Source of the DNA: Planctomycetota bacterium
Lineage (GTDB): Bacteria > Planctomycetota > JAJSAM01 > JAKLKS01
DNA: 33,010 bases
Assembly: GCA_023150535.1 (NCBI GenBank)
Contig: JAKLKS010000015.1
Span: 1 to 33,010, forward strand
Direction of reading: 5' to 3'
How positions within the stretch are numbered: the stretch's first letter is position 1; each line of letters opens with the position of its first letter. The notes below the pieces were generated by a model, which had not been told where the DNA came from, did no database searches, and worked only from the letters and a program-made list of their open reading frames with translations. Below are positions 6,530 to 28,778 of the stretch, one piece after another. Made by a program: the position numbers and the translations under genes.

Positions 6530-8442
6530 GGCTCCCCCCCCTCCCGTCGGCCCTCCTCCTCGGGACCCTCCTCGCGCTCCCCGCGGGCCCCCTCCCCGGC
6601 GCCGAGGACCCCGACGCCGGGCCCCCCTTCAAGGTCACCGGCACCTACCCGGGCGACGGGCGGGAGGGCGTCCTCACCGACCCCGTGGCGGTGCGGTTCA
6701 ACAGGCCCCTCGACCTCTCCTCCGCCACCGCGACGTCCCTCGTCCTGCGCAACGGGGCCCAGAAGCTGGCCGGCGCCTTCTCGACGGGCGCGGGGAAGGG
6801 GGGGGAGCCCGACCCCCGGATCCTCGTCTGGACCCCCGCCGCCCCCCTCCCCCCGGGCGCGCGGATCTCCCTGGAGGGCACCCTCGACCTCCGCAGCGAC
6901 CTCGGGCGGGGGCTCGACGACGTCCTCGAGATCTCCTTCACCGTCGACCCGGCGAAGCCCGCCTTCACCCAGACCCCCCTCCCGGGGAAGGTGAAGTTCG
7001 CCCGCCGCCCGAAGGTCGGGCCCCCTCCCGTGGTGCGGTGGACCGACCCCCTGGCCGGCTTCGGCTCCGTCTTCTCCGACCGCATCCGCATCCGGTTCAA
7101 CCGGCCCATGAACGGGGGCACCCTCAACCCCTCCACGGTGCGCATCCTCACGGGGGGGGCCGACGTCCCCGGCATCCTCCACTACCCCTCCTCCGGGGAC
7201 CCGCGCGAGGTGGAGTTCCTGCCCGAGTCCCCCCTCTTCCCCGGCACCTCCTACCAGATGCTCGTCACCCGGGAGGTCCGCACCGAGCGGGGCGCCAACC
7301 TCCGCGAGGAGTACCGCGCGGGGTTCAGCACCTCCCCCTTCAAGGAGGGGGTGCGGCCGGTCCGGCCCGAGGACTTCACGCCGGGCCCGGACCTCGCCCT
7401 CGGCCGGGCCTTCCACACCGCCAGCCCCCTCTCCGGGGGGGACGTGCTGGTCGCCGGCGGGGAGGGGGTGCCCGGCGCCCCCACGGCCGTCTGCGAGGTC
7501 TTCCGCCGGGGATCCGCCACCTTCGAGAGGGCGGGGGACCTCGGGGACTCCCGGCGCAAGCACGCGGCGGTGACCCTCAAGAGCGGCAAGGTCCTCGTCT
7601 GCGGGGGCTTCGGCGCCGCGGGGCAGACCCTGGCCTCGGCGGAGCTCTTCGATCCCCTCTCCGGGACCTGGTCGCCGGCCTCCTCCATGGCCTCCTCGCG
7701 GGCCCACCACACCGCCACCCTCCTCCAGGACGGGCGCGTGCTGGTGGCGGGGGGCTTCACCACCGCCGGAGGGACCTTCGACTACGAGGGGACGGCGGAG
7801 GTCTACCACCCCACCACCGACGCCTGGGTCCCGGCGGGCCCCCTCGCCTGGAGGCGGGGCGGGCACACCGCGACCCTGCTCAACGACGGGAAGGTCCTCC
7901 TCGCCGGGGGGGCCCGCTCCCAGGCCGCCGTGGCGGAGCTCTACGACCCCGCCGTGAACGCCTGCCGGCGGACCGCGGGCGACCCGGCGGAGCACCGGAT
8001 CTTCCACGCCGCGGCGTTGGTGCGCCTCGGCTCCGTCCTCCTCGCGGGCGGAGGCCCCGCCCAGGCGGAGCGGTACGAGCCGGAGACCGAGACCTTCTAC
8101 CCCTCCGGCTCCTGCCCCCCCTTCGGCCTGCCGGTGTCGGAATCCCCCTGGTACCCCACGCTCACCCCCATCCCCGGGGGGAGGGCGGCCTTCCTCGGCG
8201 GGCTCTCCCTCGGCGGGGGGGGCGGGGGGAGCGACCTCGTGCTCGCCCAGATCCAGCTCTGGGACACCCGGGGCGGGAACGGCACGGGGGCCTTCTTCCC
8301 CATGCTCTTCTTCCTGCCCGTGCCGAGGGCGGCCCACACGGTCACCCCGCTGGGGGACGGAAGATTCCTCGTCGTCGGGGGCCTCGGGACCGAGACCTCC
8401 TTCAACGAGCGGCGGACGACCCTCTTCTTCCCCTCGAACTGA
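6526..8442 (+). CDS. Secreted protein with two SbsA/Big_5 Ig-like domains and kelch propeller
   Basis: 638 residues from TTG, with GGAGG at 6511-6515; the in-frame GTG at 6481 is the alternative start. The N-terminus LRLPPLPSALLLGTLLALPA is a Sec signal peptide. Two domains of the bacterial Ig-like SbsA type follow: one with TYPGDGREGVLTDPVAVRFN and ending in LEISFTVD, the second with RIRIRFNRPMNGGTLNPSTV. The rest is a beta-propeller of galactose-oxidase/kelch repeats, recognised by the repeating H(T/A)A.L..G.VLV.GG pattern: GRVLVAGGFTTAGG, GKVLLAGGARSQA, GSVLLAGGGPAQAE and GRFLVVGGLGTET. Galactose oxidase copper ligands are not evident, so a binding role is likelier than catalysis. The 3' end overlaps argH tail to tail by 41 bases. 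Confidence 0.85.
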   Translation: MRLPPLPSALLLGTLLALPAGPLPGAEDPDAGPPFKVTGTYPGDGREGVLTDPVAVRFNRPLDLSSATATSLVLRNGAQKLAGAFSTGAGKGGEPDPRILVWTPAAPLPPGARISLEGTLDLRSDLGRGLDDVLEISFTVDPAKPAFTQTPLPGKVKFARRPKVGPPPVVRWTDPLAGFGSVFSDRIRIRFNRPMNGGTLNPSTVRILTGGADVPGILHYPSSGDPREVEFLPESPLFPGTSYQMLVTREVRTERGANLREEYRAGFSTSPFKEGVRPVRPEDFTPGPDLALGRAFHTASPLSGGDVLVAGGEGVPGAPTAVCEVFRRGSATFERAGDLGDSRRKHAAVTLKSGKVLVCGGFGAAGQTLASAELFDPLSGTWSPASSMASSRAHHTATLLQDGRVLVAGGFTTAGGTFDYEGTAEVYHPTTDAWVPAGPLAWRRGGHTATLLNDGKVLLAGGARSQAAVAELYDPAVNACRRTAGDPAEHRIFHAAALVRLGSVLLAGGGPAQAERYEPETETFYPSGSCPPFGLPVSESPWYPTLTPIPGGRAAFLGGLSLGGGGGGSDLVLAQIQLWDTRGGNGTGAFFPMLFFLPVPRAAHTVTPLGDGRFLVVGGLGTETSFNERRTTLFFPSN

Positions 8443-9892
8443 GGCCGGACCCGGCCCCCCGGCCCCGGGCGAAGCGCCGGATCCGGGCGATCTCCCGCCG
8501 GACGCGCCCGGGCGCCGTCCCCCCGACGTGGTCGCGGCGGGCGACGGCGGTCCGCGGCTCCAGCAGGGGGAGGAGGTCCGGCCCGAAGGCGGCGTGGAGC
8601 CCGCGCCAGTCGGAGGGCGCGAGGTCGGGGAGCCGGCAGCCCCGCTCCTCGGCCAGGAGCACGGCCCGCCCCGCCGCCTCGTGGGCGTCCCGGAAGGGCA
8701 CCCCCCTGACCACGAGGTAGTCGGCCGCCTCCGTGGCCTCCGGGAACCCGGCCAGCAGCGCCCGGGCGCAGGCCCCGCGGTCGAAGGAGAGCCCCCGGAC
8801 CAGGGCCGCCGCCGCCCGCAGGGAGGCCCCCCAGGTGTCCAGGGCGTCGAAGACCGCCTCCTTGTCCTCCTGCAGGTCCCGGTTGTAGGCGAGGGGCAGC
8901 CCCTTGAGGATCACCAGGAGCGCCACCAGGTGGCCCGCCACGCGCCCGGTCTTCCCGCGGAGGAGCTCCGCCGGGTCGGGGTTGCGCTTCTGGGGCATGA
9001 TGCTCGATCCCGTGGAGACGGAATCGTCGAGGCGGGCGAAGCCGAACTCGGCCGTGGTCCACAGGACGGCGTCCTCGGCGAGGCGGGAGAGGTGGACCAT
9101 GCCGAGGGCGGCGGCGGCGAGGACCTCCACGGCGAAGTCGCGGTCGGAGACGGCGTCCACGCTGTTGCGGCAGGGGGAGGCGAAGCCGAGGTCGCGGGCG
9201 GTCCCCGCGCGGTCCACGGGGAAGGTGGTACCCGTGGCGGCGCCGCTGCCGAGGGGGCACTCGTCCATGCGCCGCAGCGCGTCGGCGAGCCGGCCGTCGT
9301 CCCGCGTCAGGGGCTCCGCGTGGGCGAGGAGCACGTGGGAGAGGAGGACCGGCTGGCCGCGCTGGAGGTGGGTGTAGGCCGGCGCCAGGACCCCGAGGTG
9401 GCGCGCCGCGAGGTCGGCCAGGGCGCCGGCGAGCGCGCGCAGCCCCCCCCGGATCCCCTCGGCCTCGCCCCGGATCCAGAGCCGGAGATCGGTGGCGACC
9501 TGGTCGTTGCGGCTCCGGGCGGTGTGGAGGCGGCGGCCCGCGGGGCCGATCCGCTCCGTGAGGACCCGCTCGACGAAGGAGTGGACGTCCTCGTCGGGGG
9601 CGCCGGCGGCGGAGAGCCGGCCGGCGTCGATGTCGCGGAGCATCCCGCGGAGGCCGCGGAGGATCCGGTCGGCCTCGCGGCGGGGGAGGATCCCGGTGCG
9701 CCCGAGCATCCGGGCGTGGGCGGCGGAGGCCTCGACGTCCACGCGCAGGAGCCGCCCGTCGAAGCGGAGCGAATCCCCGATCTCCCGCAGCTCCGGCCCC
9801 GGGCCCCCGCGGAACCGCCCCCCCCAGAGGGCGGCGCCCCGCGGCCCCCCCTCCGGCCTCCCCGCCCCCTTCGGCCTCCCCCCGCGGCTCAT
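8402..9892 (-). CDS. argH: Argininosuccinate lyase
   Basis: 496 residues. Last step of arginine synthesis: splits argininosuccinate into arginine and fumarate. Start ATG at 9892 forms an ATGA overlap with the argE' stop. The fumarase/aspartase superfamily signature GSSIMPQKRNPD lies at residues 295-306. HTARSRNDQV (123-132) and YTHLQRGQPV (173-182, catalytic-His region) are intact. The N-terminus carries about 20 extra Gly/Arg/Pro residues before the usual LWGGRF motif. The C-terminus is a basic, Gly/Ser-rich tail, which makes the protein somewhat longer than the roughly 460-residue norm. That tail is where the gene overlaps the convergent kelch gene. It is the last gene of the eight-gene operon. 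Confidence 0.96.
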   Translation of the reverse strand: MSRGGRPKGAGRPEGGPRGAALWGGRFRGGPGPELREIGDSLRFDGRLLRVDVEASAAHARMLGRTGILPRREADRILRGLRGMLRDIDAGRLSAAGAPDEDVHSFVERVLTERIGPAGRRLHTARSRNDQVATDLRLWIRGEAEGIRGGLRALAGALADLAARHLGVLAPAYTHLQRGQPVLLSHVLLAHAEPLTRDDGRLADALRRMDECPLGSGAATGTTFPVDRAGTARDLGFASPCRNSVDAVSDRDFAVEVLAAAALGMVHLSRLAEDAVLWTTAEFGFARLDDSVSTGSSIMPQKRNPDPAELLRGKTGRVAGHLVALLVILKGLPLAYNRDLQEDKEAVFDALDTWGASLRAAAALVRGLSFDRGACARALLAGFPEATEAADYLVVRGVPFRDAHEAAGRAVLLAEERGCRLPDLAPSDWRGLHAAFGPDLLPLLEPRTAVARRDHVGGTAPGRVRREIARIRRFARGRGAGSGLSSRGRRGSSAAR

Positions 9893-10953
9893 GGACCGCC
9901 TCCCTTCGCGGCGAACCAGCGGAGCGCGAGGTCCCTGTAGACCTCCGCCGCCCGAAGGACCTGGTCCAGCGGCACGGACTCGTCGGCCTGGTGGCTCTGC
10001 TCCGGGTCCCCGGGGCCGAGCACGATCCCGGGGACGTCCCTCACGTGGAAGAGGTCGGAGACCCCGCCGAACCCCACGGGGTCGGCGGTGCCCGTGGCCG
10101 CCAGCGCCGCCGCCACGAGCGGGTCCGACCGGGGGGTCTCCACCGGCGTCATGCGGTCGCGGAGCGTCGCGATGCGGCTGCGGATGAGGCCGCGCAGCCG
10201 CGGCACGAGGACGTCGTTGCCGTGGTCCGGCGTGGGCCGCGCGTCCACGGTGAAGACGCACTCCGCCGGCACGACGTTGCGGGCGGCGCCGCCCCGGATC
10301 GTGGTGACCGTCACCGTGGGGTGGCCGAGGAGCGGGTGGGGGGGGCCGTCGAACCTCAGGGACCGGAGGCGCTCCACGTCCTCCAGGGCGAGGAGGATCG
10401 CGTTCACCCCCTGGTGGGGGCGGGCGGCGTGGGCGGCGCGCCCCTCGGCGACGGCCTCGATGCGGACGAGGCCGCGCTGGGCGGTGGCCACCCGCAGCCC
10501 CGTGGGCTCGCCCACCACCGCCGCGTCGGGGGCTGGGAACTCCCCCCGGCAGACCTCCAGGCCCTGGCCCCCGGTCTCCTCGTCGCAGGTGAAGGCCGCC
10601 ACGAGGCGGCCGGGGATCCCCTCCCGCGCCATCCGGGCGAAGGCCGCGGCCATGGCGGCGACCGACGCCTTGTCGTCCCCGGCGCCGAGCCCGTGGAGCC
10701 GCCCTCCCTCGACGGAGGGGGCGAAGGGGTCCCGCGTCCACCGCTCCGTGGGCGGCACGGTGTCGAGGTGGGCGTTGAGGAGGAGGACCGGGCCGCCGGA
10801 GCCCGCGGCGCACCAGACGTTCCGCCCCGAGACGACGGGGGAGAGTCCCTCCCCGCGCAGGGCCTCCGCCGCGCGGGCCGCCGCCGCGGCCTCGTTCCCC
10901 GAGACCGAGGGGATGGCGACGAGGTCCCGCAGCAGGGCGACGGGGTCGATCAC
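9889..10953 (-). CDS. argE: M20 family N-acyl-citrulline/ornithine deacylase (ArgE-like)
   Basis: 354 residues from GTG at 10953; the argB stop TAG shares its last base. Metallopeptidase M20 features are present: LLNAHLDTVP (first zinc ligand), GAGDDKASVAAM (bridging Asp), CDEETGGQGLEV (catalytic Glu pair) and EQSHQADESV near the C-terminus (zinc His). The family includes ArgE, DapE and LysK. Because the operon's carbamoyltransferase acts on acylated ornithine, the natural substrate here should be N-acylcitrulline (ArgE'), giving citrulline for ArgG. That assignment is by context; acetyl- versus succinylcitrulline cannot be read from the sequence. The stop overlaps the argH start (ATGA). Confidence 0.85.
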   Translation of the reverse strand: MIDPVALLRDLVAIPSVSGNEAAAAARAAEALRGEGLSPVVSGRNVWCAAGSGGPVLLLNAHLDTVPPTERWTRDPFAPSVEGGRLHGLGAGDDKASVAAMAAAFARMAREGIPGRLVAAFTCDEETGGQGLEVCRGEFPAPDAAVVGEPTGLRVATAQRGLVRIEAVAEGRAAHAARPHQGVNAILLALEDVERLRSLRFDGPPHPLLGHPTVTVTTIRGGAARNVVPAECVFTVDARPTPDHGNDVLVPRLRGLIRSRIATLRDRMTPVETPRSDPLVAAALAATGTADPVGFGGVSDLFHVRDVPGIVLGPGDPEQSHQADESVPLDQVLRAAEVYRDLALRWFAAKGGGP

Positions 10954-11906
10954 TAGTACTGGTCCTCGCCCTGGGGGACCCGCTCCAGCGAGATCATGGT
11001 CCCGGTCCCCTTCACCGTGAACAGCTCGAGCAGGATGGAGTGGGGCTCGAGCCCGTTGAGGATGTGGGCCCTGGGGATCCCGCGCCGCACCGCCGACACG
11101 CAGGTCCGGACCTTGGGGATCATCCCGCCGCGCACCACCCCCTCCGCCATGAGCCGGTCCGCCTCGTCGGCGGTGAGGTCGGTCAGGAGGGAATCCTCGT
11201 CCCCGAGGTCCCTCATGACGCCGGGGACCTGGGTCAGGTTGAGGAACTTGTCCGCCTTGAGGTCCACGGCCATCTCCAGGGAGACGTTGTCGGCGTTGAT
11301 GTTGAGGACGTTCCCCTTCCCGTCCGCCCCGAGGGAGGCGACCACGGGGACGTAGCCGGCGTCCATGAGGGTCCGGAGCACGCGGGAGTCCACGTTCTCG
11401 ATGTCCCCCACGTGCCCGAAGTCCACGGAGCGGACCTCCCCCGTGGCCGGGTCGGTCATGGGGAGGGCCTCGCGCCGCCGGGCCGTGATGAGGCCGCCGG
11501 AGAGCCCGTTGAGGCCGACCGCGTGGAGCCCCTCGGCGCGGAGCGCCGACAGCATCTCGATGTTGATCTTCCCGGCGAAGACCATCTTGGCGACCTCCAG
11601 CGTCGCGTCGTCGGTGATGCGCCGCCCCTCGACGAACTGGGGCTCGACCCCGAGGCGCTCCTGGAGCTCCGTCGCCTGGGGGCCGCCGCCGTGCACGACG
11701 CAGATGCGCATCCCCACGTGGTGGAGGAGCGCGATGTCGCTGGAGAGGTTCTCCAGGGCGTCGCGGTCCTTCACGAGGTGCCCGCCCAGCTTCACCACCA
11801 GGGTCTTCCCCCGGTGCTGGCGCATGTAGGGGAGGGCCTGGCGGAGGAGCTTCACGTCGAAGTCCTCGGCGCCGCCGTCGCCGGCGGCCGGAAGCGGTTC
11901 GCTCAT
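10953..11906 (-). CDS. argB: N-acylglutamate kinase (acetylglutamate kinase family)
   Basis: 317 residues from ATG, in ATGA overlap with the argF' stop. Phosphorylates N-acylglutamate, the second step of the pathway. Amino-acid-kinase motifs are present: KTLVVKLGGHLVKD (ATP/substrate lysine region), ICVVHGGGPQATEL, and ADNVSLEMAVDLKADKFLNL, followed by GGMIPKVRTCVSAVRRG. The usual GLSGKDG motif reads GLNGLSGGLITARRR, and an insert (ALPMTDPATGEVRSVDFGHV) follows it. A 20-residue Ser/Gly/Asp-rich lead precedes the domain. Whether the substrate is acetyl- or succinylglutamate depends on the first, unidentified step. Confidence 0.94.
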   Translation of the reverse strand: MSEPLPAAGDGGAEDFDVKLLRQALPYMRQHRGKTLVVKLGGHLVKDRDALENLSSDIALLHHVGMRICVVHGGGPQATELQERLGVEPQFVEGRRITDDATLEVAKMVFAGKINIEMLSALRAEGLHAVGLNGLSGGLITARRREALPMTDPATGEVRSVDFGHVGDIENVDSRVLRTLMDAGYVPVVASLGADGKGNVLNINADNVSLEMAVDLKADKFLNLTQVPGVMRDLGDEDSLLTDLTADEADRLMAEGVVRGGMIPKVRTCVSAVRRGIPRAHILNGLEPHSILLELFTVKGTGTMISLERVPQGEDQY

Positions 11907-12967
11907 GGACGGAGGGTCTCCAGGAAGACGGCCTTCTGGACGAGGAGGCGGTTGCGGGCCTGGTTCAGGACGAGGGAGCCCGGCCCCTCGACGACGTCGT
12001 CGGCGGCGACCACGTTGCGCCGCACCGGGAGGCAGTGGAGGAACCGCGCCCTCGGCGCGGCGGCGGCCATCCGCTCCCGGGTGACGGTCCACCCGGCGGC
12101 GGCGGCGCGCGGCGTCCTCTCCTCCTCCCAGCGGCCGTAGAAGGAGGGGGCGCCCCAGGACTTGGCGTAGACCGCGGCCGCCCCGGAGAGCCCCTCGGCC
12201 TGGTCGTGGTGGACGGAGACCGACCCGCCCCGCTCCTCCGCCGCCCTGCGGACGGAACCGAGGAACGCGCCGTCGGGCTCGAACCCCTCGGGGCAGCAGA
12301 CCCGCACCGCCATGCCGGCCCGGGAGGCCATGCGGAGGACCGCGTGGGGCACCGCCATGGGCAGGGGCTTCGGGTGGGGGGCCCAGGTGAGGGCGAGCGG
12401 CTTCCCCCGCAGGTCGGCGCCGAGGGCGTCGCGCAGCGCCAGGAGGTCGGCCAGGGACTGGAGGGGGTGGTCCTGGGCGCTCTCGAGGTTGTAGACCGGG
12501 CAGCGGGCCGCCTCGGCCACGGCGCGGAGCACCGGCTCGGCGGCGTCCTCCTTCCAGGACCTCATCCCCGCGAAGCAGCGGAGCCCGAGGCCCCGCACCA
12601 TGGTGGAGAGGGTGCCGATGGCGTCCCGCACGTGCTCCACGGCGTCGCCGTCCATGACCGCGCCGCGGCGGAACTCCCACTTCCAGGCGTCGTTGCCGGG
12701 GGAGAGGACCGCCGCGTGGCCGCCGAGGTCGGCCATGGCCACCTCCGCCGCCACCCGCGTGCGCAGGGAGGGGTTGAGGAAGACCAGGGCCACGGAGACC
12801 CCGCGGAGGGGGCCGCTGGAGATCGGCTCCTGGAGGGCGCGGGCGGTGGCGAGGAGGTGGTCGACCTCGGCGTCGGAGAGGTCGTCGAGGGAGAGCAGCG
12901 ACCGCCCGCGGAGGTCGACGGGGCGGGCGGGGGCGGGGGGCGGGGAGGCGGGGGCGGACTGGGTCAT
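11903..12967 (-). CDS. argF': N-acylornithine carbamoyltransferase, predicted succinylornithine type
   Basis: 354 residues from ATG, with ATGA overlaps at both ends. Transfers carbamoyl from carbamoyl phosphate to an N-acylated ornithine. SLRTR (67-71) binds the phosphate, HPLQ lies at 167-170 and HCLP at 311-314. It is not an ordinary ornithine carbamoyltransferase. DAWKWEF with W95, LTWAPHPKPLPMAVP, VYAKSWGA and HCLPVRRNVVAADDVV match the Xanthomonas N-acetyl- and Bacteroides N-succinylornithine enzymes. The discriminating residue (Glu92 in the Xanthomonas acetyl enzyme, Pro90 in the B. fragilis succinyl enzyme) falls in MDGDAVEH and is V110. The acetyl enzyme's carboxylated lysine position is V320. 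From known mutant work (Glu92 to Pro, Ser, Ala or Val gives succinylornithine activity) I infer succinylornithine, untested here. Residues 1-18 are a disordered Pro/Ala lead. Confidence 0.9.
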   Translation of the reverse strand: MTQSAPASPPPAPARPVDLRGRSLLSLDDLSDAEVDHLLATARALQEPISSGPLRGVSVALVFLNPSLRTRVAAEVAMADLGGHAAVLSPGNDAWKWEFRRGAVMDGDAVEHVRDAIGTLSTMVRGLGLRCFAGMRSWKEDAAEPVLRAVAEAARCPVYNLESAQDHPLQSLADLLALRDALGADLRGKPLALTWAPHPKPLPMAVPHAVLRMASRAGMAVRVCCPEGFEPDGAFLGSVRRAAEERGGSVSVHHDQAEGLSGAAAVYAKSWGAPSFYGRWEEERTPRAAAAGWTVTRERMAAAAPRARFLHCLPVRRNVVAADDVVEGPGSLVLNQARNRLLVQKAVFLETLRP

Positions 12968-14151
12968 GGCTGGTCGGGCCTCGCGGCGGCGAGCGCTTCC
13001 AGGAACTCCTCCACCTCCGCGGGACCGGCGGTCAGCGGGGGGAGGAGGCGGACGGCGGAGGGATCGGAGGAGACGGAGGAGGCGAGCACGCGCCGCTCCC
13101 GGAGGCGGGCCAGCACCGCCTTCGCGGGGGCCTCGCAGGAGATCGCGAGCAGGAGGCCGAGGCCGCGGACCTCGCGGACGCCGGGGAGGGCGAGGGCCCC
13201 CTCGCGGATCGCCGCGCCGGAGGCGGCGGCCCTCGCGACCAGGCCCTCCTCCCGGATCACGGCCAGCGTCGCCTCCAGCGCGGCGCAGGCGAGCGGGCCG
13301 CCGCCGAAGGTGGAGCCGTGGTCCCCCTCCTTCACCCCCGCGGCGATCCGCTCCGAGAAGAGGACCGCGCCGCAGGGGACGCCGGAGGCCACCCCCTTGG
13401 CCATGGTGTGCATGTCGGGGCGCACGCCCCAGTGATCCCCCGCCCAGGCGCGCCCCGTGCGGCCGAGCCCCGTCTGGACCTCGTCGAAGAGGAGCAGCGC
13501 GCCCCGCTCGTCGCAGAGGCGGCGGAGGCCGCGGTAGTACTCCGGGGAGGCGACCCGCACGCCCCCCAGGGAGGGGACGGGCTCCAGCAGGACCGCCGCC
13601 GTGTCCGGCCCCACGGCCGCCTCCGCCGCCGCGAGGTCCCCGAAGGGCACGAAGGCCGAGCCGGGGACGAGGGGTCCGCCGTAGTCGCGGTACTTCCCGA
13701 GCCCCGTGGCGGAGAGGGCCCCCAGGGTCCTCCCGTGGAACCCGTCGGACATGGCGACGACCCCGGGCCGGCCCGTCGCCGTGCGGGCGGTCTTGAGCGC
13801 GGCCTCGTTGGCCTCCGCGCCGGAGTTGCAGAGGAAGACCTTCCCCGCCCCCCCGGGGCCGAACTCCACGAGCGCCTTCGCGGCCCGGGCGCGGGCGTCG
13901 TTGTAGACGATGTTGGAGTAGAAGAGGAGGCGCCCCGCCTGCTCGCGGACGGCCGCCACCACCCGCGGGTGGGAGTGGCCCGTCAGCGCCACGGCGTGGC
14001 CGCCGTAGAAGTCGAGCCAGGGGTTCCCCTCGCTGTCGAACACGCGGCAGCCCTCGCCCCGCACCACGGCGAGCGGGAGGTGGGCGTAGGTCGGCACCTG
14101 GAAGCGGTCCTCCATCTCCCGGATCGCGTCGAAGGAGGAGGGGCCGGTCAC
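12964..14151 (-). CDS. argD: N-acylornithine aminotransferase
   Basis: 395 residues from GTG at 14151, which overlaps the argC stop as GTGA. Class III PLP transaminase that converts N-acylglutamate semialdehyde to N-acylornithine using glutamate. Motifs: VFLCNSGAEANEAALKTAR (phosphate and cofactor contacts), DGFHGRTLGALSATG, LLLFDEVQTGLGRTG (cofactor Asp and Gln), and HTMAKGVASGVPCG with the Schiff-base lysine. The normally conserved EPIQGEGG loop reads EPVPSLGGV, a deviation at the substrate side of the active site. It fits an enzyme adapted to a different acyl group but could be neutral drift. Gene order argC-argD-argF'-argB-argE'-argH resembles what I recall of Bacteroidetes arginine clusters. 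Confidence 0.93.
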   Translation of the reverse strand: MTGPSSFDAIREMEDRFQVPTYAHLPLAVVRGEGCRVFDSEGNPWLDFYGGHAVALTGHSHPRVVAAVREQAGRLLFYSNIVYNDARARAAKALVEFGPGGAGKVFLCNSGAEANEAALKTARTATGRPGVVAMSDGFHGRTLGALSATGLGKYRDYGGPLVPGSAFVPFGDLAAAEAAVGPDTAAVLLEPVPSLGGVRVASPEYYRGLRRLCDERGALLLFDEVQTGLGRTGRAWAGDHWGVRPDMHTMAKGVASGVPCGAVLFSERIAAGVKEGDHGSTFGGGPLACAALEATLAVIREEGLVARAAASGAAIREGALALPGVREVRGLGLLLAISCEAPAKAVLARLRERRVLASSVSSDPSAVRLLPPLTAGPAEVEEFLEALAAARPDQP

Positions 14152-15194
14152 GGCCGGGTCCCCGGGTGGAGGAGGCCCGCGGTCTCGGGGAGCCCGAAGA
14201 GGAGGTTCAGGTTCTGGACGGCCTGGGAGGCCATGCCCTTGCCGAGGTTGTCGATGGCGCAGAGGACCACGGCGCGGCGGCCCTTCGCGTGGACGGCGAC
14301 GTCCGCGAAGTTCGTCCCCGCCACGACCCCGACCCGCGGGGTCCCCCGGCGGATCCGCACGAAGGGCTCCCCCCCGTAGACATCCCGGAAGATCCCCTCC
14401 AGCGCCTGCGGGTCGGCGGGCGCGTCGAGCAGGACCGCGGCGGTGGCGAAGATGCCGCGCACGAAGGGGCCGGAGTGGGGGACGAGGGAGACGGAGGCGG
14501 ATTCCGCCCCCGATTCCCGGAGCTGCCTCTCGATCTCCGGGACGTGCTGGTGCTCGAGCACCTTGTAGGCGCGGAGGTCGGCCGCCCTCTCGGGATGGTG
14601 GGTCCCGGCCCCGGGCTCGACGCCCGAGCCGGAGGACCCGGTGACGGCGAAGACCACGGATTCCCCGCGGAGCATCCCGCGGCAGGCCAGGGGGTGGAGG
14701 GCCGCGACGACGGCCGTGGCGAAGCAGCCGGGGTTGGCCACGCACCGCGCGGCCCGGACGGCCGCCCGGTTCGCCTCCGGGAAGCCGTAGACGAACCGCG
14801 ACGCGAGCCCCGGCGCGGGGTGGGGCATGCCGTAGGCCCGCTCCCACTCCCCGGCGTCGTCGAGGCGGAAGTCCCCGGAGAGGTCCACGATGCGCAGGCC
14901 GGGGTTCGCCCCGAGCGCCGCGGGGACGAGGCGGGCCGCCTCGCCGTGGGGGAGCGCGAAGACCAGCGCCTCCACCCGCCTCGCCAGGGACTCCGGGACC
15001 TCGTCGGTGACGACGAGCTCGGTCGTCCCCTCGAGGAACTCGTGGACCTCGGCGAGGCGCTTCCCGGCGGCCCGGCGGGCGGTCGCGGCGACGAGTTCGA
15101 AGCCGGGGTGCCCGAGGAGCAGGCGGGCGGTCTCGGCGCCTCCGTACCCGCTCGCGCCGACGATGCCGACGGGGATCCGGGCCGGGCCGGTCAA
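14148..15194 (-). CDS. argC: N-acyl-gamma-glutamyl-phosphate reductase
   Basis: 348 residues. NADPH-dependent reduction of N-acylglutamyl phosphate to the semialdehyde. Start TTG at 15194 is chosen because it makes a TTGA overlap with the preceding stop and lies just before the Rossmann motif IPVGIVGASGYGGAETARLL; no in-frame ATG lies nearby. The catalytic cysteine is in VANPGCFATAVV. SGSGVEPGAGTHHPERAADL, PHSGPFVRGIFATA and the late VLCAIDNLGKGMASQAVQNL are typical of the long ArgC class. The length is normal. The context leaves the acyl group undecided. Confidence 0.95.
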   Translation of the reverse strand: MTGPARIPVGIVGASGYGGAETARLLLGHPGFELVAATARRAAGKRLAEVHEFLEGTTELVVTDEVPESLARRVEALVFALPHGEAARLVPAALGANPGLRIVDLSGDFRLDDAGEWERAYGMPHPAPGLASRFVYGFPEANRAAVRAARCVANPGCFATAVVAALHPLACRGMLRGESVVFAVTGSSGSGVEPGAGTHHPERAADLRAYKVLEHQHVPEIERQLRESGAESASVSLVPHSGPFVRGIFATAAVLLDAPADPQALEGIFRDVYGGEPFVRIRRGTPRVGVVAGTNFADVAVHAKGRRAVVLCAIDNLGKGMASQAVQNLNLLFGLPETAGLLHPGTRP

Positions 15195-16216
15195 CCGAGG
15201 AGCCCCTCGACGATGTCGGCCAGGCGGTGGCCGTCGGTCCGGGCGTTGGCGGCGGGGACCTTGAGCTCCCGCTGGATGTAGCCGGAGCCCACGGTGTTGT
15301 CCGTGGCCGGCCCCGCGAAGACGTCGATGCGGAGGTCCATCTCCTTCATCACCGCCACGGCCCCCCAGGCGGCCACGAGGTCGTTGGCGCACATGACGTG
15401 GGCCCGCGCGGCGGCGCGGATCTCGGGGTCCTTCAGGATCCCGGCCACGCCGTAGCCGCCGATGATCCCGTCCCCGAGCTCCACGACGATGACGTCGGGC
15501 TTCCTCGCCGCCAGCGCCGCCAGGAGCCCCTTCATCACCGAGGGGAGGTCCGGCGTGTCCACGGTGGAGGGGAGCCCCGCGTCCTGGAAGGAGAGCCCGT
15601 CCCGCGCGCCGTGGTCGATCATGTTCAGGAGGTCGCGCATGCAGGCGACCCCCGTGGCCTTGAGGGCCGCGCAGCGCCAGCCCCTCTGGGCGAGCTTCTG
15701 GATGATCTCGCAGGCGGCCTGGGTCTTGCCCGCCGCCATGCAGGTCCCCTCGACGATGACGAGGGGGGGGAAGTCGGGGATGCCGGCCAGGGAGGCGCGG
15801 GGCGGGATCGCCCCCTCCTCGATGTTGAGCGGCCTCCCATCCCTGACCGCCATGCCCAGCACCTCGACCTGGAGCGGCGTGCCGAGGTCCTTGTTCCCGG
15901 AGACGCAGACGCCGATGACGCCGCCGAGGTTGAGGATCTGGAGGCGGTCCCCGACCGCGATGGTCTCGGGGAGGTCGCCCACGAACCCCTTGAGGGCCCT
16001 CCGCTTCCCGAGCACCCCGGCGATGACGTCCTCGCGCCCGATGTGGGCCATGCGGCCGGTGTCGAGCTCCAGCTTGTCGTAGACGGACTTCTCCTGGAGC
16101 GCCTTCACGACGATCACGTTCCCCGCCCGGACCTCGATGCGGTCGGAGATCTCGATCTCCTTCCCGAGCTTCAGCGTGGCCGTGGACGACGCGACCTTGT
16201 CGACGCGGACGATCAC
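15191..16216 (-). CDS. P-loop protein related to DUF1611/BioD-like family in the arginine operon; candidate N-acylglutamate synthase
   Basis: 341 residues from GTG at 16216, overlapping argG (GTGA) and argC (TTGA). Residues 1-145 form a beta-rich domain I do not recognise (VRVDKVASSTATLKLGKEIE ... GDRLQILNLGGVIGVCVSG). Residues 152-341 are a P-loop domain with GTCMAAGKT at 157-165. The five-residue spacing before GK is that of DUF1611 (GTDCxxGK), and ALKATG follows as in that family. VIVVELGDGIIGGYGV and HVMCANDLVAAWGAV complete the fold. A DUF1611 protein, DgcN, has been reported as a D-glutamate N-acetyltransferase. Since no ArgA, ArgJ or GNAT gene is present in this otherwise complete operon, I infer it may acylate L-glutamate. 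It could instead be a regulator or ATPase. Confidence 0.6.
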   Translation of the reverse strand: MIVRVDKVASSTATLKLGKEIEISDRIEVRAGNVIVVKALQEKSVYDKLELDTGRMAHIGREDVIAGVLGKRRALKGFVGDLPETIAVGDRLQILNLGGVIGVCVSGNKDLGTPLQVEVLGMAVRDGRPLNIEEGAIPPRASLAGIPDFPPLVIVEGTCMAAGKTQAACEIIQKLAQRGWRCAALKATGVACMRDLLNMIDHGARDGLSFQDAGLPSTVDTPDLPSVMKGLLAALAARKPDVIVVELGDGIIGGYGVAGILKDPEIRAAARAHVMCANDLVAAWGAVAVMKEMDLRIDVFAGPATDNTVGSGYIQRELKVPAANARTDGHRLADIVEGLLG

Positions 16217-17454
16217 CGGACCTGTCCCTCCCCGGCCTCCCGGGCGCGACGCGCCCGGAGCCGCTCGGCCAGCACCCCCTGGAACCCGTGGAGCCGGGAG
16301 AAGCCCGCGGCCTCCGCACCGGTCCAGGCCTTCGCGCCCTCGCCGTAGGTCGCGCCCGCGGAGGCGAGCAGCGAATCGGGGCTCCGCACGCCGACGACCT
16401 GCGAGGAGCCGCGGTGCAACCGCACCCGCACCTCGCCGTTCACCCGCTCCTGGGAGGAATCGAGGAAGGCCTCGCAGTCCCGCAGGACGGGGTCGAACCA
16501 GAGGCCCTCGTGGAGGGCCCCGCCGTAGTACTCCCCGACGGCCCCCTTCCACTCCTGCTGGGCCTTCGTGAGGACGAGCTTCTCGAGCTCCCGGTGGGCG
16601 CCGATGATCACGATCGGGGCGGGGGCCTCGAAGGCGATGCGGCCCTTGATGCCGAGGATGGTGTCGCCGAGGTGGATCCCGCGGCCGACGCCGTGGGCCC
16701 CCGCCCTCCTCCCGAGCTCCGCGAGGAGGTCGAGGGGGTCCAGCGCCCTCCCGTCCAGCGAGACGGGGAGGCCCTTCGCGAACCCGAGGACGATCTCCTC
16801 CGCCTCCGCGGGGGCCTTCTCCGGGTCGACGGTGGTCGGCCATGCCTCGGGGGGGAGCGTCCTCCAGGGGTCGTGGGTCTCGCCGCCTCCGATGGTGACG
16901 CCCCAGAGGCCGGCGTTCACGGAGTACCTCCGGGTGGAGCGGTCCACGGCCTGGCCCCGCTTCTCGAGCCAGTCGGCCTCCTGGTCCCTCGACCAGCCGA
17001 GGTCCCGGATGGGGGTGAGGACCCGCACGCCGGGGGGCAGGAGGGCCAGGAGCGCGGTGTCGAACCGGACCTGGTCGTTGCCGGCCCCGGTGGACCCGTG
17101 GCAGACGGCGGCGGCCCCCTCCTCGACGGCGACGCGGGCGACCTCCTCCGCCTGGACGATGCGCTCCGCCCCGACCGACAGGGGGTAGACGCCGCCGCGG
17201 AGGCAGTTGCCCTTGACGATGTAGGTGCAGAAGCGGTCCCAGACGCGGCGGCGGCCGTCGACGAACTCGTGGCGGACGGCGCCGACGGCCGCCGCGCGGG
17301 CGGCGATGCGCTCCCTCTCGGCGGGGGTGAAGCCGCCGGTGTCCACCGTCACGGTGATCACGTCGGCGCCCTCGGTCTCGCGGAGCCAGAGGGCGCAGAA
17401 GGTGGTGTCGAGCCCGCCGGAGAAGGCGAGGACGATGCGTGGGCGCTGGTTCAA
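16213..17454 (-). CDS. argG: Argininosuccinate synthase
   Basis: 413 residues. Joins citrulline and aspartate with ATP. The TTG at 17454 gives MNQRPRIVLAFSGGLDT, placing the PP-loop (SGGLDT, residues 12-17) at the normal distance from the N-terminus. No ribosome binding site is obvious. Further family motifs are HGSTGAGNDQVRFD (citrulline/aspartate contacts), VNAGLWGVTIGGGETHDPWR and GRGIHLGDTILGIKGRIAFE. Length is normal. First gene of the operon, with a predicted promoter at 17575-17603 and a roughly 110-base leader. Confidence 0.95.
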   Translation of the reverse strand: MNQRPRIVLAFSGGLDTTFCALWLRETEGADVITVTVDTGGFTPAERERIAARAAAVGAVRHEFVDGRRRVWDRFCTYIVKGNCLRGGVYPLSVGAERIVQAEEVARVAVEEGAAAVCHGSTGAGNDQVRFDTALLALLPPGVRVLTPIRDLGWSRDQEADWLEKRGQAVDRSTRRYSVNAGLWGVTIGGGETHDPWRTLPPEAWPTTVDPEKAPAEAEEIVLGFAKGLPVSLDGRALDPLDLLAELGRRAGAHGVGRGIHLGDTILGIKGRIAFEAPAPIVIIGAHRELEKLVLTKAQQEWKGAVGEYYGGALHEGLWFDPVLRDCEAFLDSSQERVNGEVRVRLHRGSSQVVGVRSPDSLLASAGATYGEGAKAWTGAEAAGFSRLHGFQGVLAERLRARRAREAGEGQVR

Positions 17455-17738: not shown

Positions 17739-18593
17739 ATCCGCATCGTCTGCGCCGGGAAGACGGACGTCGGCCGGAAGCGCCAGCTGAACGAGGACTC
17801 CTTCTACCACTCGGAGAAGGACGGGTTCTGCGTCCTCGCCGACGGGATGGGGGGGCGGGACTTCGGGGAGGTGGCGTCCTCGCTCTGCGTCTCCTCCTTC
17901 AACACCCACTTCAAGAAGCACTTCCCCGAGACCTTCCGCGGGCGGAAGCGGGGGGCCGACGGGCTCCTCGAGGACCTCCTCCGGGTGCTCTTCGACGGCT
18001 GGGTGCGGGAGGTCAACAACCAGGTCTACCACTTCGGGATGGTGGACGCCCGCTACCGGGAGATGGGGACGACGCTCGCCTTCCTCTACCACCAGGAGGA
18101 CCTGGCGGCGACGGTGCACGTGGGGGACTCGCGCATCTACCGCTGGCGGCGCGGGGAGATGCGGCAGATCACCGAGGACCACTCCTTCATCAACAGCCAG
18201 CTCAAGGCGAAGCTCATCACGCCCGAGGAGGCGGCCCGCTCGTCGCACAAGAACATCATCACGCGGGCCATCGGGACCCGGCAGGCGGTGAAGCCGGAGG
18301 TGCGGTTCCACGAGGCGCAGGCGGGGGACGTCTACCTCCTCTGCTCCGACGGGCTGTCCGACCTCGTCTCCTCCGACGACATGGGGCAGGCGGTGGCCCG
18401 CAACGGGGGGGACCTCGCGAGGACGGTCGAGGAGCTCATCGACCTCGCCAACGAGCGCGGCGGGAAGGACAACATCACCGTCGTGCTCGCGCGGGTGGAG
18501 GCCGGCGAGCCGCCGCGGAACGGCTCCCCGTCGAACGGGAACGGCCACGGGAACGGCCACATCGGCGACGCCCCCGCCCCCGGCGCGAAGTAG
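17739..18593 (+). CDS. PP2C-type Ser/Thr protein phosphatase with apparent ATC start
   Basis: 284 residues if started at ATC 17739. Dephosphorylates Ser/Thr phosphoproteins with two metal ions, usually opposing Hanks-type kinases. Metal-site motifs: KTDVGRKRQLNEDSF, VLADGMGG, GDSRIYRWRRGEMRQITEDH, LLCSDGLSDLV and GGKDNITVVLAR. The first ATG in frame (17847) lies inside DGMGG and would delete two metal ligands. An in-frame TAG at 17703 limits how far upstream the start can be, and no ATG, GTG or TTG lies between. ATC at 17739 sits eight bases after GGAGG and yields (M)RIVCAGKTDVG, the usual N-terminus. CTG at 17724 is the alternative. The tail is Asn/Gly/His-rich (NGNGHGNGH). Confidence 0.88.
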   Translation: MRIVCAGKTDVGRKRQLNEDSFYHSEKDGFCVLADGMGGRDFGEVASSLCVSSFNTHFKKHFPETFRGRKRGADGLLEDLLRVLFDGWVREVNNQVYHFGMVDARYREMGTTLAFLYHQEDLAATVHVGDSRIYRWRRGEMRQITEDHSFINSQLKAKLITPEEAARSSHKNIITRAIGTRQAVKPEVRFHEAQAGDVYLLCSDGLSDLVSSDDMGQAVARNGGDLARTVEELIDLANERGGKDNITVVLARVEAGEPPRNGSPSNGNGHGNGHIGDAPAPGAK

Positions 18594-26062: not shown

Positions 26063-27217
26063 TCAGCGCCCCCGCAACTCCGTCCTCCGGATCCGGATCC
26101 CCCTCCGCCGGAGGTCCGCGAGGTGGGCCTTCCCGTAGCCCAGCCGCTCCGGCGTCCGGGCCCCCGGGGGGAGCCTCCCGAAGGCGAGGTCCGACGCCGT
26201 CACCGCCGCCGGGTAGCCGGTCGTCCGCTCCATGGCGGAGAACCCCGTCCGCGGGTCGAACCGCTCCAGCATCTCGTAGCGCACGCCCCGCCCCCGCGCG
26301 TCGGTCCCCTCCACCCGGAGGATGGCGAGATCCTCCACCGTCCCCCGGTCGAGGCGGGGCCCCGCGGCGGCGTGGAAGACCGCACGCGGCGCCACCTCCA
26401 CGCCCCCCGCCCGCACCGGGTCGAGGGAGAGGAGCCCGAGGTCGATCATGGCCCGCACCTTCTCGAAGTGCCCGGGGTAGCGGATCGTCTTGTAGTCGTA
26501 GGTCCGGAGCCTGCCGGCGAAGGTCGCCGCCGCCGTGCTCGTCCCCCCGGAGGTGAAGAAGCACTCCAGCGTCCCCAGGCGCCCCGGCCCCTCGAAGGGC
26601 TCCACCTCCGTGAAGGCCTCGAAGCGCCGCAGGCGCCCGCCCCGGATCACCTCGGCCTCGCCGGTGTACTCGTTCGTCAGCCCCTCGATGGAGAAGAGGA
26701 GCGCGTACCCCAGCGGCCCCGAGGGGCGGCGGGGGAGGCCGCCGCAGCGGATGCGGACGTCGCGGATCCCAGGGACCTCCGCCGCGGCCATGGCCGCCAG
26801 CACGTTCCCGAGCCCCGGGGCCAGGCCGCAGTCCGGCACGAGGCCGATGCCGGCCCTCCGGGCGGCCCGGTCGAGGCGGAGCGCCTCCCGCACGAGCCCG
26901 GTGTTCCCCCCGAGGTCGCAGAAGGGGACCCGCGCCTCCACCGCCGCCCGGGCGAGGCCGGGGTTGAACCGGTAGGGGAGCGCGCTCACGGCCACCGCGT
27001 GGCCGGAGAGGAGGGCGGGGGCGTCCTCCTCCTCCAGGTGCCGGTGGAGGGCGCGGATCGGCGTCCGCGGGAGGAGGCGGCGGAGCCGCGACTTCCCGCG
27101 GCGGAGGGCCTCCGGGTCGGACTCGAGGAGCGTGAGCGCGGTCGCCCCGCCGCGGCGGGCGAGGTCGTAGGCGATGGCGAGGCCCTGGCGGCCGGCGCCG
27201 AGGACGATGGCCTTCAT
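26063..27217 (-). CDS. Saccharopine dehydrogenase-family enzyme, lysine 6-dehydrogenase-like
   Basis: 384 residues from ATG. The N-terminal Rossmann motif is MKAIVLGAGRQGLAIAYDLA. Typical of lysine 6-dehydrogenases in this family are VPDCGLAPGLGNVLAAMAA, FSIEGLTNEYTGEAEVIRGG, FFTSGGTSTAAATFAGRLRT and DYKTIRYPGHFEKVRAM. The known enzyme oxidatively deaminates the epsilon-amino group of lysine with NAD+, giving piperideine-6-carboxylate. Substrate here is inferred from similarity only; other amino-acid dehydrogenases in the family are possible. No other lysine genes lie nearby. The gene is 58 bases after an AAA ATPase gene, across a G-quadruplex-forming tract. Confidence 0.8.
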   Translation of the reverse strand: MKAIVLGAGRQGLAIAYDLARRGGATALTLLESDPEALRRGKSRLRRLLPRTPIRALHRHLEEEDAPALLSGHAVAVSALPYRFNPGLARAAVEARVPFCDLGGNTGLVREALRLDRAARRAGIGLVPDCGLAPGLGNVLAAMAAAEVPGIRDVRIRCGGLPRRPSGPLGYALLFSIEGLTNEYTGEAEVIRGGRLRRFEAFTEVEPFEGPGRLGTLECFFTSGGTSTAAATFAGRLRTYDYKTIRYPGHFEKVRAMIDLGLLSLDPVRAGGVEVAPRAVFHAAAGPRLDRGTVEDLAILRVEGTDARGRGVRYEMLERFDPRTGFSAMERTTGYPAAVTASDLAFGRLPPGARTPERLGYGKAHLADLRRRGIRIRRTELRGR

Positions 27218-27275: not shown

Positions 27276-28778
27276 TCAGCGCAGGAGCATCAGGGTCGAG
27301 AGCGGCAGGCAGTGGATCCGCGGATCGGGGACGGAGACTCCGTCCGCCTGGGTGACCAGGAGCCCGAAGGGGGCGTTGTTCGGCTTCTTCTCCAGGAAGG
27401 TGCGGAGCCCCTCCGTCGCCGCGAGGGGGTCGACGCGTCGCTGGTACTTGACCTCGACGGGGATCCTCCGGGTGCCGATGGTCAGGACGAAGTCCACCTC
27501 CGGCTCCCCGTCCCGCTCCGGGAGGTGGGACAACTCCACCTGGGGGAGGGAGAGGAGGGTGGCCCCGCAGACACTCTCCGCGATGTGTCCGGCGAGCGTG
27601 GTCAGGTGGACGTCCCTGGACAGCTGCTCCGGGTCCAGGGGGACCGCCTCCTGGAGCCATGAGGCCCGGAGCCCGTGGTCCGCGAGGCAGATCTTCGCGT
27701 GCCCGCGGCGGCGCTTGAGGCGGATCTCCAGGGGCTCCACCAGGCGGAGGAGTAGGGTGTCGCCGAGGAAGCGGAGGTAGTTCCTCACTCGCTGCTGGCC
27801 GACGTTCGCGGCCAGAGACCTCTGGACCTCTCGTGCGAAGGCGAGCGGCCCGGGGGACTGACCCACGTACCGGCAGGCGAGCCGGAAGATCTCCTCGAGG
27901 AGCGGGGCATCCCGTTTCCGCCCCCTTTCTCCGACCCGGAGGTCGTGCTGGATGACCCTCCGGATCACCGTCTCGTTCAACTGGCCGGCGAGCAGCCCCC
28001 AGTCGGTGTCCGCCTGCTGGTGGACGAGCGGGTATCCCCCCCGGGCGGAGAAGTGACGGAAGGCCTCGTCCCGCATGGCGGAGGAGCTCCTTCCGTGGGC
28101 CTCGAGGTCGCGCCAGAACTCCGGGTCGAGGAGGACCTCGATTCCGTTGTCCGGCAGGAAGGGGCCGAGGGGGCCGGAGCCCCGGAACGCGGCGATCTCC
28201 GTCAGGGAAAGCACCCCCGCCTCGATGGTGTGGATGCGGCCCGCGAGGCTGTCCCTCCCCTGCTCGATGCGGAGCGCCGAACTCCCGGTGACCAGCAGGC
28301 TGGTGGTGGAGGCGTCCACGAGGAACTTCAGCTGGGGCGCCCAATCCCTGAGATTCTGGACCTCGTCGAGGAAGAGGAAGGTCGGCCGGCCGGCCTGGGC
28401 GGCCCGGTTGAGGGTGCAGCCGAGAACGGACTCCTCGAACCACTCCACAATCCGGAGGAGCGGCTCCTGGAGTCCGGAGAGGGCGGGGATCTCGTCCGCC
28501 TGAACCCTGAGGATGCACTCCGGCGGGACTCCCCCTTCGAGCAGGTCCTGGAGCAGCTGGAGTTGCGCCGTCGTCTTCCCGATCTGTCGGGGGCCCCGGA
28601 CGACGAGGATGGGGGCGAGGCGGAGGTCGAGCCTGCGGCGAAGGAGCCTCACGAGATGGCGCCGGGTCGGGGGAAGGACGGGCATCGCGCCGCCCTCCCA
28701 CCAGGGATTGAGGCGGCGGAGGTCCCGGACGAGGACTTCCGGCAGGGTCATCCGGCGGAACAGGACCGGGTCCTTCAT
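27276..28778 (-). CDS. AAA ATPase with C-terminal DUF4143
   Basis: 500 residues from ATG. Residues about 55-210 are an AAA_14 domain: [20 protein letters not shown] (Walker A), [15 protein letters not shown] (Walker B) and [11 protein letters not shown] (sensor 1, typical GSS). Residues about 290-470 match DUF4143, ending with the nuclease-like [20 protein letters not shown], an E/D-x...E-x-K arrangement of restriction-endonuclease-like folds. These proteins are widespread, often horizontally spread, and of unknown function; a toxin or defence role has been suggested but is not shown. GC content is slightly lower and it uses more varied codons than its neighbours. A weak promoter, TTGGGA-N17-GTTATC, may lie at 28790-28818. 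Confidence 0.88.

Follow-up and report, generated by a model that had tools for sequence, protein, structure and literature searches.

In many bacteria, the annotation of arginine synthesis has long had a gap at the first step; pathways that use ArgJ recycle the acyl group. Among the described systems, Caldithrix carries the gene for a GNAT synthase beside argG-argC, in the locus argAGCBEH (PMC5317091; PMC7311316), and the arginine pathway of Bacteroides, which runs through succinylated intermediates, is a known parallel to the pathway considered below (PMC7311316). Acetyl- and succinylornithine carbamoyltransferases can be told apart by three positions, Glu92, Asn185 and Lys302 of the Xanthomonas enzyme, which in the succinylornithine type are occupied by A/S/P/V/Q, P and V/I/E, respectively (PMC4581275).

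The window, i.e. the whole stretch of 33,010 nucleotides analysed here (Planctomycetota bacterium, contig JAKLKS010000015.1), contains an arginine operon with the gene order argG-X-argC-argD-argF'-argB-M20 deacylase-argH, as assigned with Pfam and NCBIfam. X denotes a gene whose family is real, conserved and unnamed and which occupies the slot of the missing enzyme; its function in that slot is strongly suggested. From the gene context and the phyletic pattern, we infer that X is probably the first enzyme of the pathway, which would make N-acyl-L-glutamate (most likely the N-succinyl form) as an unrelated replacement of ArgA and ArgJ.

Gene content of the arginine operon

The features of the locus, all on the minus strand, are as follows.

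8402–9892, minus strand: argH, argininosuccinate lyase (TIGR00838, 545 bits)
9889–10953, minus strand: M20 ArgE/DapE-like hydrolase, candidate N-acylcitrulline deacylase (Pfam and NCBIfam)
10953–11906, minus strand: argB, acylglutamate kinase (TIGR00761, 236 bits; start inferred)
11903–12967, minus strand: argF', acylornithine carbamoyltransferase, succinylornithine-type V/P/V (NF003384, 381 bits)
12964–14151, minus strand: argD, acylornithine aminotransferase (Pfam and NCBIfam; start inferred from a GTGA overlap)
14148–15194, minus strand: argC, N-acyl-gamma-glutamyl-phosphate reductase (TIGR01850, 346 bits; TTGA overlap with X)
15191–16216, minus strand: gene X, 341 amino acids, candidate N-acyl-L-glutamate synthase (N-domain about 1–147, C-domain about 150–341)
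15722–15748, minus strand: Walker A motif of X, GTCMAAGKT, residues 157–165 (conserved columns)
16213–17454, minus strand: argG, argininosuccinate synthase (TIGR00032, 309.9 bits; GTGA overlap with X)

Gene X starts with GTG at 16216 and stops with a TGA ending at 15191, and its third-position GC content in frame is 0.99, as in the adjoining arg genes. The initial annotation placed a 341-residue protein between argG and argC, to which we add that it is encoded on the minus strand; the four-base overlaps described on both of its sides are GTGA, common to argG and X, and TTGA, common to X and argC. The operon covers all later steps to arginine. The claim that it is complete after acylglutamate, and devoid of ArgA, ArgJ or a GNAT, was borne out by Pfam and NCBIfam searches of its eight proteins; no GNAT or ArgJ was found among these or among 10 further window proteins scanned, and X itself, considered as a GNAT N-acetylglutamate synthase, has no GNAT match in either collection. 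A separate ArgJ or ArgA was also looked for in the window's own genome, which is 88% complete: ArgJ (PF01960) gave no match there, and for the GNAT half of ArgA there was only a 19-bit hit, leaving the genome without a convincing ArgA. Elsewhere in the window, a PP2C-family phosphatase gene (17847–18593) is divergent from the arg operon, and a saccharopine dehydrogenase-like gene (26063–27217) adjoins an AAA/DUF4143 ATPase gene (27276–28778).

Domain structure and family relations of X

No Pfam or NCBIfam family matched X above cut-off. Sequence comparison with the PDB yielded nothing beyond P-loop matches at E 0.2 or worse, those of the profile search being to BioD P-loops; a PHROGs search returned nothing informative, and no paper in the limited open-access literature searched describes the family. 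The AlphaFold model of X, built from 56 homologues, has a pLDDT of 95.8. Structural matches of its C-domain in Foldseek were BioD, HypB, SRP/FtsY, MeaB, CTP synthase and DgcN, that with BioD having an E of 7.8e-6 and a probability of 1.00; as modelled, the C-domain is a SIMIBI-class P-loop NTPase domain. Its best similarities at the family level, below cut-off, are to MobB, CobQ and BioD. The N-domain had been described as unrecognised and beta-rich, and so it proved: folded alone it adopts a beta fold with a pLDDT of 94.7, and since Foldseek found no match in the PDB better than E 0.75, it may represent a new fold.

In the homologue alignment, G157, M160, G163, K164 and T165 are nearly or fully invariant, GxxxxGKT as a whole being invariant or nearly so; K186 is invariant, D201 and E246 are conserved, and the PDB profile search aligns K186 with the active-site lysine region of BioD. 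The strict conservation of charged residues across the family suggests that X is an enzyme.

The initial annotation had filed X with DUF1611 and DgcN on account of the motif GTCMAAGKT. The P-loop is present and its key residues are near-invariant, but the DUF1611 assignment did not hold: the match to PF07755 reached 15.3 bits, with the cut-off at 25, and was confined to the P-loop, and homology was not seen beyond it. At a threshold of 0.001, PF07755 had no match in the genome of the window, and when profiles were compared (hhalign) with nine genuine DUF1611 proteins from Planctomycetota, 49 columns around the P-loop were aligned (probability 33%, E 0.0005). Structure prediction likewise upheld a P-loop domain, of the SIMIBI class, but the C-domain lies equally near to BioD, HypB, CTP synthase and DgcN (7xrj), the last of which ranked 28th among the structural matches, after BioD, HypB and SRP GTPases, with a TM-score of 0.38. 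Both families have a TG pair following the second strand, together with an E-x-G-x-G-like motif, and the common TG pair makes a weak kinship between them possible.

These shared motifs, the aligned P-loop region and the presence of DgcN, deposited as an N-acetyltransferase, among the structural matches would fit a DgcN-like X, an acyl-CoA-dependent L-glutamate N-acyltransferase with the same role and another mechanism, in which the P-loop would bind CoA by its phosphates instead of ATP. We consider this rather unlikely given the low rank of DgcN, the N-domain without a structural match, and the sequence of the P-loop region, where X has GKT and DUF1611 mostly GKM, GKK or GKR, and where DUF1611 lacks a lysine equivalent to K186.

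Distribution and gene neighbourhood

A scan of species genomes returned at least 588 stretches, at least 567 of them relatives of X, mostly from Planctomycetota and Acidobacteriota; the best 80 came from Planctomycetota, Acidobacteriota, Wallbacteria, Gemmatimonadota, Sumerlaeota, Spirochaetes, Myxococcales, Elusimicrobia and others. X was found in arg clusters almost everywhere examined, and a single unnamed family holds the slot across several phyla. In a set of 59 relative genomes, 27 carry it, nearly always in the arrangement argG-X-argC. Across 107 X loci, many of which are short and some of which were drawn twice from one genome by two routes, argG was close to X in 83, argC in 81, argD in 67 and argB in 61, and the M20 deacylase gene lay alongside in 44. 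The hosts are mostly uncultured bacteria, and no arginine prototroph in culture came to light as a carrier of X; for the cultured Chloracidobacterium thermophilum, the reported essential amino acids exclude arginine (PMC4376005).

Three further observations concern the surroundings of the family. (i) A diverged subfamily occurs in L055 (8566–9636, minus strand), G064, G098, G182, G226 and G274, with 29% identity in G011; in L055 it adjoins an ABC transporter gene, has no arg neighbours and shows an altered form of the conserved TD motif. Its role differs, since ArgJ is present in four of the six genomes that have it. (ii) In a Gemmatimonadota locus (L115), an ArgR-like repressor gene (9439–9888; recognised by eye from the N-terminus) directly precedes X, which is followed by argC, argD, argB, argG and argH in a cluster with no argF'. 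(iii) A contig labelled Woesearchaeota (L177), which could be mis-binned, carries a complete arg operon of bacterial type, X included.

Alternation of X with ArgJ and ArgA

Among 294 Planctomycetota genomes, X (matches at E 1e-87 or better) was present in 92 and ArgJ in 123, with both in only one (Fisher p 1.7e-26); to judge from named relatives that share contigs, the genome of the window is one of the Planctomycetota sampled. When the 202 genomes with a strong ArgB were considered, 87 carried X alone and 106 ArgJ alone, while one had both and eight had neither; counted by family, X occurs in 36, ArgJ in 34 and both in three. Outside Planctomycetota, ArgJ was found in one of the 39 X-carrying genomes picked. 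Among the 59 relatives, the GNAT half of ArgA scored above 30 bits in ArgJ genomes only, X genomes remaining below 28 bits; in X genomes outside Planctomycetota the best such match was 38.7 bits and the rest were below 29. ArgA-type GNATs track ArgJ and not X, a result that refers to the ArgA type used in the search. The idea, proposed from the window alone, that X takes the place of the absent N-acylglutamate synthase is in this way matched by a near-complementarity to ArgJ and GNAT-ArgA in Planctomycetota.

The expected association with argF' was likewise found: argF' scored above cut-off in 28 relatives, X being present in 25 of the 28, and such an argF' occurs in 25 of the 27 X genomes. 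The other two are G026, a fragmentary genome with an argF'-bearing family member (G150), and G051, which also has ArgJ. In families f21 and f32, which include both types, the whole cluster differs and not one gene. Because X travels mostly as part of an argF'-type module, its complementarity to ArgJ is partly a complementarity of two pathways, and the pattern alone therefore cannot separate a replacement of ArgA/ArgJ by X from simple membership of X in the argF' module. What separates them is the logic of the pathway: the first step is the one step of that module without a gene, and X its one gene without a function.

Several genomes have argF' and no X. Genus g106 (G120, G149 and G280) carries argB-argH-argG-argC-argD-argF', the gene order of the X-bearing clusters of G070 and G135, but X is missing between argG and argC, and neither ArgJ nor an ArgA match was found; G029 and G053 have argF' and argB and lack X. 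These genomes may use another synthase; no GNAT was recognised by eye in the ORFs of the clusters of G029, G053, G036 and G120. In loci L258 (9271–16221), L259 and L260, one genus has a complete argF'-type cluster with a succinyl-type argF' and no match to X, ArgJ or ArgA, and possibly employs yet another acylglutamate synthase.

The g106 clusters, otherwise identical and lacking X, are also what one would see if X, as a MobB/HypB-like P-loop protein, had an accessory or regulatory part in the argF' pathway and the true synthase were a GNAT encoded elsewhere. The family-level similarities of the C-domain to MobB, CobQ and BioD agree with such a role, and GNATs are abundant and generic. A steady alternation with ArgJ would not be expected of an accessory protein, and the weakness of ArgA-type matches in X genomes speaks against a GNAT of that type, so that we regard this explanation as unlikely. 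That X supplies carbamoyl phosphate, which the argF' step needs, by a BioD-like chemistry acting on carbamates, or performs the deacylation, has next to no likelihood, because CarB occurs both in the genome of the window and in the majority of X genomes, and because X is accompanied by an M20 deacylase gene in the window as well as in 44 of the 107 loci.

Acyl group of the pathway

At the three diagnostic positions, located by sequence motif and not by structure, argF' of the window has V, P and V and is of the succinyl type. Nearly all X-linked argF' proteins have succinyl-type residues; many from Acidobacteriota have T at the first position, which is absent from the published list (PMC4581275), and a few have K at the third (L050 and L083). 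The Glu92 of the acetyl type was found only in argF' of G036, a genome without X. Judged by these residues, the X-linked transcarbamylase points to succinyl and not acetyl intermediates.

Proposed role and mechanism

The computations establish the slot that X occupies, its pattern of co-occurrence and the class of its fold. Taking X as the probable entry enzyme, we infer the reaction, the acyl group and the use of ATP as follows. The SIMIBI P-loop domain would bind Mg-ATP through G157–T165, D201 and E246, with K186 at the place of the substrate lysine of BioD. X would activate the acyl carboxylate as an acyl-phosphate, to be attacked by the alpha-amino group of L-glutamate, while the conserved N-domain residues Y46, E50, R55 and R72 may hold the carboxylates of glutamate and of the acyl donor. 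The product, N-acyl-L-glutamate, would then be phosphorylated by ArgB. If X is indeed the synthase, the residues, the fold and general knowledge of BioD tip the choice slightly towards an ATP-using ligase of the BioD/CTP synthase type over transfer from CoA, because X keeps the BioD-like Lys/Asp/Glu set together with GKT. Our most specific proposal, put forward tentatively, is that X is an ATP-dependent N-succinyl-L-glutamate synthetase which needs no acyl-CoA, joins a SIMIBI domain to an N-domain of new fold, and serves as the standard entry enzyme in several phyla of mostly uncultured bacteria.

A genome that carries X would be counted as arginine auxotrophic. If the assignment is true, X would be the third unrelated protein solution to acylglutamate synthesis, after GNAT and ArgJ, and metabolic reconstructions of Planctomycetota and Acidobacteriota would change.

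Comparison with known systems

DUF1611/DgcN (PF07755; 7xrj, 2obn and 2g0t) shares with X the broad P-loop class and a proposed glutamate N-acylation chemistry, and differs in its N-domain, in its mostly GKM/GKK/GKR P-loops and in lacking the additional K186. The SIMIBI branch of BioD, CbiA/CobQ and CTP synthase provides the best structural matches of the C-domain and has the same GxxxxGKT with a following lysine; sequence similarity over the whole domain is, however, not significant, and X has an extra N-domain and an arginine context. With the GNAT synthases (ArgA, S-NAGS, C-NAGS and the BT3761/Cabys_1732 type), X has the predicted reaction in common but not the fold, which is unrelated. ArgJ fills the same functional niche in related genomes with an unrelated sequence and fold. 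The operon itself resembles the succinyl pathway of Bacteroides in its succinylornithine-type argF' and M20 deacylase (PMC7311316), with the difference that the first step is carried out there by a GNAT and here, as predicted, by X.
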